Shown: positions 1 through 2,751 of the stretch, piece by piece
Layout: each line of letters opens with the position of its first letter
How positions within the stretch are numbered: position 1 is the stretch's first letter
Assembly (NCBI GenBank): GCA_021414085.1
Contig: JAIOPC010000017.1
Coordinates: 1 to 64,000 of the forward strand
Origin: Actinomycetes bacterium
GTDB taxonomy: Bacteria; Actinomycetota; Acidimicrobiia; Acidimicrobiales; Ilumatobacteraceae
Direction of reading: 5' to 3'
DNA length: 64,000 nucleotides
The notes under the pieces: generated by a model
Told to the model about the DNA's origin: nothing
Database searches by the model: none
The model's input: only the letters and a program-made list of their open reading frames with translations
Program-made: the position numbers and the translations under genes

Positions 1-291
1 CGAACCATCAGCCAACGCGGCACCCAGTTCGGGGATCGCAGCACACGTCCCGGCACGATCACGTAACCGTTCGGCAGCCATCAACGACGACTTCGACGCG
101 TCGGCCACGACGGCTTGCGGGAACAACCCGGCGTCGGTCTCCGCGAGCTCATCGAGACGACGCACCACCTCGAGCTCGCGGGCATCGAGCAACCCGCGCA
201 CGACCCCGATCGCGACCAACTCGGCGCGACACACCGCAACATCGGTCAGCTCAGTCGCCGAGATCAGGGGCCGCAAAGCCTTGATGTCCAT
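1..291 (-). CDS. DUF222/HNH (13E12-family) protein, 3' part outside window
   Basis: The first 97 codons of a leftward gene, read from ATG at 289-291 and open to the window edge. The sequence begins MDIKALRPLISATEL and continues with an Arg/Glu-rich helical stretch, ending near ELGAALADGS. This resembles the N-terminal DUF222 region of the actinobacterial 13E12 repeat family, whose members usually carry a C-terminal HNH nuclease motif. That part is not visible here, so the nuclease is assumed from the family. These genes are multicopy and behave as mobile or repetitive elements in actinobacteria. The start codon lies 18 bp from the first cassette repeat, so the gene caps the left end of the repeat-separated array. 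No convincing ribosome binding site is seen. Confidence 0.7.
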   Translation of the reverse strand, partial: MDIKALRPLISATELTDVAVCRAELVAIGVVRGLLDARELEVVRRLDELAETDAGLFPQAVVADASKSSLMAAERLRDRAGTCAAIPELGAALADGS

Positions 292-309: not shown

Positions 310-386
310 GGGGTGTTACAGAGATAACCCCAGCGCCAAATTCTGGACAAAGGGTCTAACCGGGATCAGGTTGCTGGTGTTGGTTG
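310..386 (+). repeat. Cassette-boundary repeat A (split copy)
   Basis: The left part GGGGTGTTA (310-318) and the right part GATCAGGTTGCTGGTG... (364-386) match the two halves of repeats B-E, but here they are separated by about 45 bp. The right end abuts the stop codon of the next gene (387-389). The left half forms a small dyad with AACCCC at 327-332. Confidence 0.65.
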
Positions 387-896
387 CTAGACCGTTTCAA
401 CGACCGGGGTAACGCTCAACTTGGCGATGCCGTTGATTGCGGCGTCGTACGCAGCCCGGTCAAAGACAAATTCGTGTTCGTCCGGTTTGCCGGTGCCAGT
501 TCTGAAACCCGACCACCGAACGGTCGTCTCATCGAATGTGATGCTCGCCTGGACTCCGCAGCATCCAACGACCCCGCACCCTCCGTCGAGGATTGCAGCG
601 AGTCCGTCGTCTCCATAGCCAGGCGGACCACTCCATTGAGTTGATTGGGGTTCGACATAGTGAGCGGGCAGGCCGGCGTATCCGCCATGGTTCAGAATTT
701 CTTGCACTGTCTTGCCATCGATCACTGGAACAATTAGGTCCAGGTTGAGTGGAGGTCGCGGTCGCCAACGGTTCTGCAGATTTCGTTTGAACACCAGCGT
801 GTACGCGTAGCGACGAAAGCTGAGTTCGTTCACGCTCGCATCGCTATCGGAACTATCACGGTGCGCATGCTGCCTGATCGCGAGGCACCTGTCCAC
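387..896 (-). CDS. Uncharacterised cassette protein 1
   Basis: An unrecognised soluble protein of up to 169 residues. The C-terminal two thirds look structured, with PPGYGDDGLAAILDGGCG, a GCCGVQASITFDE stretch, and a final FVFDRAAYDAAI segment. The Gly/Cys-rich block followed by a Trp-containing strand recalls small uncharacterised proteins common in accessory regions, but no function is claimed. The start is uncertain: GTG at 896 is the longest, and GTG at 833 is equally plausible because the residues before it look non-conserved. Its stop codon touches repeat A and its 5' side faces repeat B, so the gene fills one cassette. Confidence 0.6.
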   Translation of the reverse strand: MDRCLAIRQHAHRDSSDSDASVNELSFRRYAYTLVFKRNLQNRWRPRPPLNLDLIVPVIDGKTVQEILNHGGYAGLPAHYVEPQSTQWSGPPGYGDDGLAAILDGGCGVVGCCGVQASITFDETTVRWSGFRTGTGKPDEHEFVFDRAAYDAAINGIAKLSVTPVVETV

Positions 897-916
897 GGAT
901 AAACGAGTTCTCGGTA

Positions 917-958
917 GGGGTGCTATTAGGAGTTGATCAGGTTGCTGGTCCTAGTTTG
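917..958 (+). repeat. Cassette-boundary repeat B
   Basis: A 42-bp copy starting GGGGTGCTATTAGG and containing GAGTTGATCAGGTTGCTGG. It differs from repeat C at about 7 of 42 positions and lies in the same orientation. It separates cassette genes 1 and 2. Confidence 0.75.
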
Positions 959-1010
959 CGTTGAGTGAATTCCTCAAGCGGGTTTGGCCGAATCGGCAGA
1001 TCGGGGTGCA

Positions 1011-1547
1011 TTAGTCGTCGGAGGCGACGACGAGCGAGAGCTGATCCGAACCCCGGTTGATGACCACGAATTCGTAGAAATCTCCGAGCACCCACCCCCA
1101 GTCGTGTCCTGTCACGTCACGGTCGGCCAAGAGATACAGGATGGTCATCTCGTCGTTGAGAACCGCCGCTGAGGTTTGGAGAACGTCGGCGAATCCTTCT
1201 GCGTGTTCACCGTCATATTCCTTTGCCCAGTCACGCAAAGTCTGACGTGCAGTCGCTGGTTTGACCTGCACGAATGAGCCGACGCCGAGCAAGGACAGGC
1301 GATAGGGGCCGTGAAGATCTCCGGTCGGAATCCAGTGGGCCTCGTCCGTCGCGTAGTGATCTTGGTATCGCTGATGCTTCAACAGCGCCGACAGCGCGTC
1401 GACGTCGGACAGCGGGCGGGTCATCGCGAAGCGTTTCACGTCGAGCCACCGATAGCTGCCACTTCCGAGGTGGACCGTGCTGCGCTCGACGAAGTCGAGA
1501 CTGCCGGGCGTGCCGTTGGCCTCCCGCTTAGCGTCCAAGAAGCGCAT
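1011..1547 (-). CDS. Uncharacterised cassette protein 2
   Basis: An unrecognised protein of 178 residues starting MRFLDAKREANG. A TTG at 1574 would add nine residues, but the ATG is preferred. It is acidic, with no signal peptide or membrane segment. It ends with aromatic and hydrophobic strands (GWVLGDFYEFVVINRG). Size, composition and the mixed alpha/beta look would suit an immunity-type or ligand-binding protein, but this is only an impression. It occupies the unit between repeats B and C on the same strand as cassette genes 1 and 3, without an obvious promoter of its own. Confidence 0.6.
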   Translation of the reverse strand: MRFLDAKREANGTPGSLDFVERSTVHLGSGSYRWLDVKRFAMTRPLSDVDALSALLKHQRYQDHYATDEAHWIPTGDLHGPYRLSLLGVGSFVQVKPATARQTLRDWAKEYDGEHAEGFADVLQTSAAVLNDEMTILYLLADRDVTGHDWGWVLGDFYEFVVINRGSDQLSLVVASDD

Positions 1548-1602
1548 AGTGCCCGGGATGTGCCCACAACGCAAGCACCGCGTCGACCCACCGTCGCACG
1601 AA

Positions 1603-1644
1603 GGGGTGCTATTGAGAGTTGATCAGGTTGCTGATGTTGGTTGG
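1603..1644 (+). repeat. Cassette-boundary repeat C
   Basis: A 42-bp copy starting GGGGTGCTATTGAG with the shared core GAGTTGATCAGGTTGCTG. It ends 9 bp before the stop codon of the SMI1/KNR4-like gene at 1654. Confidence 0.75.
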
Positions 1645-1653
1645 TGATCAGAG

Positions 1654-2022
1654 TCAGGCGCCTTCGGGTGCGAGCCATGTGACGGCGAAGTCGGACAGAG
1701 TCGGGTACTCCTCGAACACCTCGCGCTCGGTCATGCTCCAACGCACGATCGTGTCTGAGGAGCCATCGAGGTACATGCAGAACGGATCACCGGCGCCGTC
1801 GTCGCCGAATGCCACGAGTGATCGATCCACCCAACCCTCGCGCCAATTCTTCTCGTTGTCTTCGACCAATTGCTCCAGCGGCCAAACAATCCACCACTGC
1901 CCGGCCGTGTCGTAACGACCATCGCCAATGCCTAAGAGGGTGCGGAGCGGGTTCGGCAACCGCAGCCCCAATCGCTGTTCGGCGGCATCCAGTTCGGACG
2001 GCTCGCATCCGGTTGCATCCAT
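1654..2022 (-). CDS. SMI1/KNR4 (SUKH) family immunity-type protein
   Basis: A 122-residue protein with the SMI1/KNR4 pattern. An N-terminal helix reads EPSELDAAEQRLGLRLP and is followed by NPLRTLLGIGDG. The middle strand VAFGDDGAGDPFCMYLDG is the typical conserved core, and the tail is LSDFAVTWL. SUKH-superfamily proteins in bacteria commonly neutralise contact-dependent or polymorphic toxins by direct binding in the cytoplasm. No matching toxin gene is visible nearby, so the partner is unknown and it may be an orphan immunity gene. The start is ATG 2022. The longer upstream frame only translates repeat D sequence and was rejected. It occupies the unit between repeats C and D. Confidence 0.75.
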   Translation of the reverse strand: MDATGCEPSELDAAEQRLGLRLPNPLRTLLGIGDGRYDTAGQWWIVWPLEQLVEDNEKNWREGWVDRSLVAFGDDGAGDPFCMYLDGSSDTIVRWSMTEREVFEEYPTLSDFAVTWLAPEGA

Positions 2023-2083
2023 CAGCGCAGACTGCCTGCAAAGAGCGCACAGCACAAGTCCCAGTCCAACTGTCGGTCGGATC

Positions 2084-2122
2084 GGTGCTATTGGGAACGC
2101 ATCAGGTTGCTGGTGCTGGTTG
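2084..2122 (+). repeat. Cassette-boundary repeat D
   Basis: A 39-bp copy: GGTGCTATTGGGAACGC, then ATCAGGTTGCTGGTGCTGG and TTG. It is two bases shorter in the middle than B and C, in the same orientation. It separates a leftward gene (1654-2022) from a rightward gene (2208-2543). Confidence 0.7.
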
Positions 2123-2207
2123 GGTCTCGCCAATCAGTCGGCGGACTCGGCGAGCAGACCCCGCCTTGGTGCCGCAGACCACCGACCGGTGTGGTCAGAT
2201 CGGTCGC

Positions 2208-2543
2208 GTGAACGACGAGCAGCGCAGACTCACGCCAGAGCGGGACAAGACGATCGAGCGGATTCAGCTCGTGTGCGTCCTCCTGCTTGTGGGCGTCTTG
2301 ATCGCGATGAAGGCTCTCGCTGACCGCGATGTGTTCGACACCTGGAAGCTGCTTCTAGCCGGGTTCTCAGTGATGGTCGCGATGGTCGCGCTGGTGGGGC
2401 TGATGGTCGGTCGCGTCGAAGAGCGACATTACGGAGAAGTCATGAGTGGTTTGTTGCGAGGAACGGGCCGCGACGTGAAGAGCATTCCGGCTCGGCTTCG
2501 TCGACGGGTTGCCGACACGATTACTCGGCTACGACCGCGCTGA
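2208..2543 (+). CDS. Small two-helix membrane protein
   Basis: An unrecognised 111-residue protein from GTG 2208. A charged N-terminus (NDEQRRLTPERDK) precedes two predicted transmembrane helices, roughly residues 19-35 (LVCVLLLVGVLIAMK) and 48-65 (LLAGFSVMVAMVALVGL). A basic C-terminal tail rich in Arg follows. It is the only gene in the repeat-bounded array before 2.6 kb that points rightward, so its unit is inverted relative to the three on its left. Upstream in-frame sequence to 1809 is not believable coding because it runs antisense through the SMI1/KNR4 gene. Confidence 0.55.
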   Translation: MNDEQRRLTPERDKTIERIQLVCVLLLVGVLIAMKALADRDVFDTWKLLLAGFSVMVAMVALVGLMVGRVEERHYGEVMSGLLRGTGRDVKSIPARLRRRVADTITRLRPR

Positions 2544-2570
2544 ATCGATTGCAGCCTGAGCTCGCGACGA

Positions 2571-2611
2571 GGGGTGCTATTAGAGACGTACGAGGTTGGC
2601 GGTGCTGGTTG
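2571..2611 (+). repeat. Cassette-boundary repeat E
   Basis: The most divergent copy: GGGGTGCTATTAGAGACG, then CGAGGTTGGCGGTGCTGG and TTG. It lies after the two-helix membrane protein gene and before the lipoprotein gene. No further copy was found to the right. Confidence 0.65.
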
Positions 2612-2751
2612 ACGCAGTCAATGAGTTAGTCAGGTTCTTCTGAGGCAGAGTGCTCACTCCCTCGACCCGCTCGGCCACCCGAGGCTCTCTAGCAGGCAGG
2701 ACACTGAAGGCGTGCGGGAACCGACCGCCTCTCGGCAGCGTCCAACCCGTC

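Follow-up and report, generated by a model that had tools for sequence, protein, structure and literature searches.

Putative gene-cassette array on serine-integrase attachment sites in an uncultured actinobacterium

The standard platform for acquiring cassettes one gene at a time is the integron, which relies on folded attC sites and on an integrase of the tyrosine recombinase class. Staphylococcal SCC elements use Ccr serine recombinases, their units measure tens of kb, many carry ccr genes, and they have one target gene, rlmH. In Mycobacterium, phiRv1 has its attB in REP13E12/DUF222-HNH repeats. Integrons are very rare in Actinobacteria (PMC9024848). Characterised large serine integrases (LSRs) recombine attP with attB, or attL with attR together with a directionality factor, and not other pairings; in the model of the Listeria integrase the zinc-domain motif lies at bp 16-24 of the attP half-site and at bp 11-19 of the attB half-site, a 5-bp shift (PMC3783163). 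None of the papers searched describes serine-integrase cassette arrays.

The stretch analysed here (the window, 64,000 nucleotides) is the left end of contig C1 in an 18-contig, 3.2-Mb draft genome of an uncultured actinobacterium (G000, completeness 97%). Position 1, the contig end, falls inside a DUF222-HNH gene that starts ~60 bp from the array-end site, and the sequence further left is missing; the first 376 bp share 89% identity with contig C7 at its left end. The features are collected in the table. An earlier note, made from the letters alone, had described five related repeats in one orientation: four are full copies and share one orientation, but the first (310-386) is a different element, of which only the right half (about 364-386) is common; the left half, GGGTCTAACCGGGATCAGG, belongs to another type of half-site, seen again at array ends and nowhere else. 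Other points of that description held, namely one small gene in each interval, a SUKH protein among the contents and an integron-like layout of unrelated accessory genes with one gene per repeat. The start of cassette 3 (2022) was picked by eye, and the Pfam search gave no family for 2247-2543 in cassette 4.

Table. Features of the window and related sites elsewhere. R1 is a sequence model built from 14 repeat copies, all from G000 and none an LSR site; the window copies belong to this building set, so that their R1 E-values are partly by construction.
Feature	Position	Strand	Evidence
N-terminal part of DUF222-HNH (13E12-type) gene, truncated by contig end	1..291	-	51% identity over 88 aa to DUF222-HNH protein of G013 C45, E = 1e-24
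Array-end site B'.B (attB-like), proposed centre 371/372	351..393	+	left half also at array ends L045, L046, L048, L047; outer motif at -5 register
Cassette 1 gene, 169-aa ORF	387..896	-	no Pfam family
Internal site P'.B (attL-like), proposed centre 942/943	911..958	+	R1 48.8 bits, E = 1.4e-12
Cassette 2 gene, 187-aa ORF	1011..1574	-	no Pfam family
Internal site P'.B, proposed centre 1628/1629	1597..1644	+	R1 48.3 bits, E = 1.9e-12
Cassette 3 gene, SUKH family (immunity-type)	1654..2022	-	PF09346 E = 8.6e-15 on ORF 1654-2133
Internal site P'.B, proposed centre 2107/2108	2076..2123	+	R1 40.0 bits, E = 8.3e-10
Cassette 4 gene, probable small membrane protein	2208..2543	+	ORF; hydrophobic stretches seen by eye
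Last recognised internal site P'.B, proposed centre 2596/2597	2565..2612	+	R1 33.7 bits, E = 7.7e-8
Array-end sites	window 351-393; L045 371; L046 8531; L048 4635; L047 about 6372 (diverged)
Further arrays in G000	C7:889-3565; C17:95313-96060; C17:260810 (single); C1:195771-196924		R1
Weaker copies in G000	C1:85088; C1:86930		R1
Congener G001 (nearest relative with the same repeat)	array on C59; another copy on C174		R1 search

Searching the whole genome and its relatives for the 45-bp repeat revealed further arrays in G000 and one array in the congener G001. G000 holds 14 well-matching copies and some diverged ones, with arrays at five places, or six if a weaker one is included; BLAST with one copy, which is independent of R1, found six other places (best E = 1.5e-12). 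A scan of genome contigs for the exact pattern matched one contig only, apparently that of G001, and viral contigs gave no match; the exact site is thus rare. A model search across the order (397 genomes, at reduced sensitivity) added few further sites; another model, R2, includes, unlike R1, the LSR junction on C137 of G013 and weak sites from G027 and G029. The copies are clustered in arrays, keep one orientation whichever way the genes point and, at the array ends, share only one half, which differs from what dispersed promoters or terminators would show.

The cassette contents are integron-like and typical of accessory genes: they comprise SUKH, SnoaL, an AAA/zeta-like kinase, APH (twice), a nucleotidyltransferase, glyoxalase, DUF6869 and EamA, beside unknowns. 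Units measure about 0.1-1.5 kb at several loci, L047 has a single cassette, and different units have only ~40 bp in common. Some units hold no gene and measure only about 110-130 bp from one site to the next (L046:9344-9471, L091:4090-4391, L092:4531-4680), and each of these is dominated by a long inverted repeat; two neighbouring ones in G001 are 82% identical over 170 bp. They may be cassettes reduced to a minimum, or their hairpins may have a separate function. A conserved stretch, CACAAGTnCC..., lies ~45 bp left of P' at several sites (window 1605 and 2084, L046:10023, L048:6483, L045:1570), mostly near the starts of minus-strand genes, and is a possible promoter common to some units.

The internal repeats read roughly GGGTCGTATTAAGAGTGGATCAGG-TT-GCTGGTGTTGGTTGG or GGGTGCTATTAGGAGTTGATCAGG-TT-GCTGG. 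Each array ends on one side in a site with another left half, GGTCTAACCGGGATCAGG-TT-GCTGG, and a site with only one half in common is the expected leftover of site-specific recombination. The central TT is invariant in 25/25 aligned copies; the invariant columns of the 25 aligned sites are T17, T32, T33 and G34. T32-T33, which we propose as the crossover dinucleotide, falls within the stretch that attL and attR have in common in four LSR elements. On its reverse complement the right half codes for ..GPTDTSNL(I/V), which is the HNH motif found in DUF222-HNH (13E12-type) proteins.

LSRs are found in this same motif. One DUF222-HNH gene of G013 is split at the codons of the HNH motif: the first half ends HAHHIAWWNRDHGPTDYDNLV (L105, about 2862-2902), the second half begins NLVLLCSRHHH at L105:7695, 4.8 kb from the first, and the insert carries the LSR P0001 beside the right junction (Resolvase 8e-28, Recombinase 8e-13, zinc ribbon 1e-9). 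Relatives of P0001 (63-65% identity) are adjoined by an HNH second half in G219, G298 and G332, with the first half 3.8-5.9 kb away. A second serine integrase of G013 (on C45) starts directly after HGPTDIDNLV of another DUF222-HNH gene. Because LSRs split or adjoin the motif twice in G013 and in G219, G298 and G332, it appears to be a recurrent LSR attB, used by serine integrases in several families within a single order. The DUF222-HNH protein had also been considered as the recombinase itself, an idea that was abandoned when serine integrases turned up inside DUF222-HNH genes.

The internal repeat thus resembles a hybrid LSR attachment site, in which a B half (the HNH motif) would be joined to a P' half (the attP arm). 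A matrix of P' was built from positions 12-27 outward from the central AA/TT in 24 array sites, leaving the LSR site out, and half-site boundaries had been placed by eye, using the junctions, ahead of testing the shifts. The matrix scored best at shift 0 in all eight attP half-sites (4 P' and 4 P arms) of the four LSR elements inserted in the HNH motif; in each of the five array-end halves it scored best at shift -5. The LSR arms scored 14.3, 4.9, -0.8, -4.0, 9.1, 9.6, -1.3 and 3.5, against a background in which 1% of random 16-mers exceed -2.2; the most distant elements, G298 and G332, score weakly, which counts against the hybrid-site explanation, yet are best at shift 0. The outer motif, AATACGACC, occupies 16-24 in P', and GGTTAGACC occupies 11-19 in the array-end half of the window; by its position the array-end motif, 5 bp nearer the centre, corresponds to the offset between attP and attB that has been published for LSRs (PMC3783163). 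The top three matches of R1 in 89 kb were three LSR attL junctions. Scoring all array sites with the matrix revealed no P-type arm at shift 0 in the other half, and so the internal repeats would be B.P' (attL-like) and the array ends B.B' (attB-like). No attR was seen at the arrays, and neither a complete attP (P and P') nor an attL/attR pair was found around each array unit.

Two sibling arrays, C1b and C17a, are, judging by gene order, insertions that congeners lack. The genes flanking C1b are adjacent in G001, G007 and G003, and those flanking C17a lie 31-79 bp apart in G007, G014, G003 and G009; the inserts measure about 2.8 and 3.2 kb. Their right limits, both at CACTCCnnGGGAG beside the host stop codon, lie ~0.5 and 1.5 kb past the last recognised site, which counts against the explanation proposed below. 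At the tldE locus (L047) the downstream gene is not conserved, so the congeners offer no usable empty site. Several arrays occupy loci without an HNH gene and adjoin unrelated host genes. As an inverted repeat, CACTCCnnGGGAG occurs at L046 about 11584, L048 about 7363, L045 about 2492 and L093 about 6187, and at L045 a sequence similar to it precedes the P' arm.

No LSR was found adjoining an array, and PF07508 had no match in G001, which has arrays; like the missing P arm, this counts against the explanation proposed below. G000 encodes two full-length LSRs, 37% and 34% identical to P0001, elsewhere in its genome; LSRs of G000 lie at C13:244195 and C1:180565. The recombinase would have to act in trans. 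The proposal of the earlier note, a different cassette-exchange system, is fair as far as the anatomy goes (an integron-like layout without attC, and inserted sibling arrays), because the repeat resembles a recombination site of the serine-integrase class; the exchange itself is putative, and no recombinase linked to the arrays was found.

Our best explanation, which we hold with moderate confidence, is that the window contains a gene-cassette array on LSR attachment sites, which an HNH-targeting LSR would have built up in trans. From the sequence-based elements (the identity and register of the sites, the LSR clade with its HNH target, and the insertion of two sibling arrays) we infer circular cassettes, action in trans and P'.B x B'.B recombination. 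A cassette unit would be a gene beginning with B and ending with P', and the array would start at an attB-like B'.B site. Acting in trans, the LSR that targets the HNH motif would recombine the P'.B site of a circular cassette with the B'.B site of the array end. Insertion would regenerate both types of site, leaving P'.B between the units and B'.B again at the end of the array. Units could then accrete one after another, integron-fashion, with the non-palindromic centre fixing the orientation of the cassette. Such P'.B x B'.B recombination would mirror attI x attC with serine-integrase half-sites. It is not among the pairings of characterised LSRs, so that either this LSR clade is less strict in pairing or the arrays are relics minus the P side; we favour the first. 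More tentatively, the arrays may represent a second, independently evolved integron-type system, with a serine integrase, P'.B cassette sites and B'.B array sites that are regenerated, and the DUF222-HNH gene as ancestral target. If true, a gene store of this kind has evolved two times, once on serine-integrase sites, which would help to explain the gain of small accessory genes in a phylum nearly devoid of integrons (PMC9024848); it would also bear on whether a serine integrase can pair an attB site with a hybrid site for recombination.

The array sites resemble known LSR sites in their two half-sites around an invariant central dinucleotide, in the 5-bp attP/attB shift of the outer motif and in the HNH target of DUF222-HNH genes. 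They differ in lying as repeats between single genes, all attL-like, without attR, P arm or integrase in the array. The likeness to SCC and composite SCC, drawn by analogy only, lies in sites of the serine-recombinase type, in insertions that recur at one place, in direct repeats between units and in some units without a recombinase; unlike SCC, the units are about 0.1-1.5 kb, occur at several loci and use an HNH-derived site.

The first alternative, which we judge unlikely, is that the units are remnants of separate autonomous LSR elements (integrated by attP x attB) whose integrase and P arm were later lost, as in composite SCC islands; the array would then be a graveyard and not an exchange system. 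Accretion of relics explains the identity of the sites equally well, autonomous LSR elements do exist in the same kind of site, and no LSR is left in the arrays. However, the loss of the P arm would have to leave a clean B half again and again, at each of ~20 sites; the units are very small, some even gene-less, and no remnants of integrases were noticed in the arrays. A quite improbable alternative dispenses with site-specific exchange: decayed remnants of HNH genes, with old LSR attL sites in them, would have recombined by homology to give the arrays. G000 has multiple copies of DUF222-HNH genes and several contigs break in them, but the ~40 bp common to units is short for homologous recombination, and several arrays lie at loci that have no HNH gene, beside unrelated host genes.

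It is also very doubtful that this is an ordinary integron or CALIN whose attC sites have diverged and whose IntI is lost or missing from the assembly. The arrays share with integrons the unrelated single-gene cassettes of similar content, one repeat per gene in one repeat orientation and an array-end site with a different half, and an RYYYAAC-like box occurs in 3/5 array-end halves; they differ in lacking IntI and a folded attC, in their serine-integrase-type half-sites and in genes of both orientations. As the earlier note had claimed, the repeats do not fold as attC (strand-fold z-scores -0.7 to +2.1 for full repeats) and the paired R boxes of attC ends were not found. Matches in G000 to TIGR02249, the integron integrase family, all fell below the cut-off, as did matches in 14/14 control genomes, and its three tyrosine recombinases resemble XerC, XerD and, in the third case, neither, being unrelated. 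Moreover, the LSR register and the TT core account for the site. A regulatory role of the repeats, as promoters, terminators or the like, is least credible: the CACAAGTnCC... stretch left of some sites near gene starts could be a promoter, but the repeats keep one orientation whatever the gene direction, are clustered and not dispersed, share only a half at array ends and match LSR attL junctions.

Other candidates for the repeat were rejected. An attC hairpin was sought also in a ~95-bp version with the left arm, present in few copies, but the complementarity at L046:10023 fails elsewhere and the fold is no better than that of shuffles; the resemblance to a XerC/D dif-like site is limited, by eye, to the GGTGC start; and an Rfam search of the repeat returned nothing convincing.

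Some further observations concern the genomes themselves. A stand-alone tyrosine recombinase of 303 aa in G000 (C10:121623-122324, L123) is neither XerC nor XerD by context and adjoins a CGNR zinc-finger-like gene. DUF222-HNH genes lie at or contain five contig ends of G000 (window 1-291, the left ends of C7 and C17, the right ends of C6 and C14), and assemblies tend to break where arrays start because these genes are multicopy and near-identical. The HNH-splitting element on C137 of G013 (L105:2900-7716) also encodes two secreted small proteins and a replication-initiator-like protein of 354 aa with no Pfam match, and is possibly a small replicon that carries its own serine integrase.
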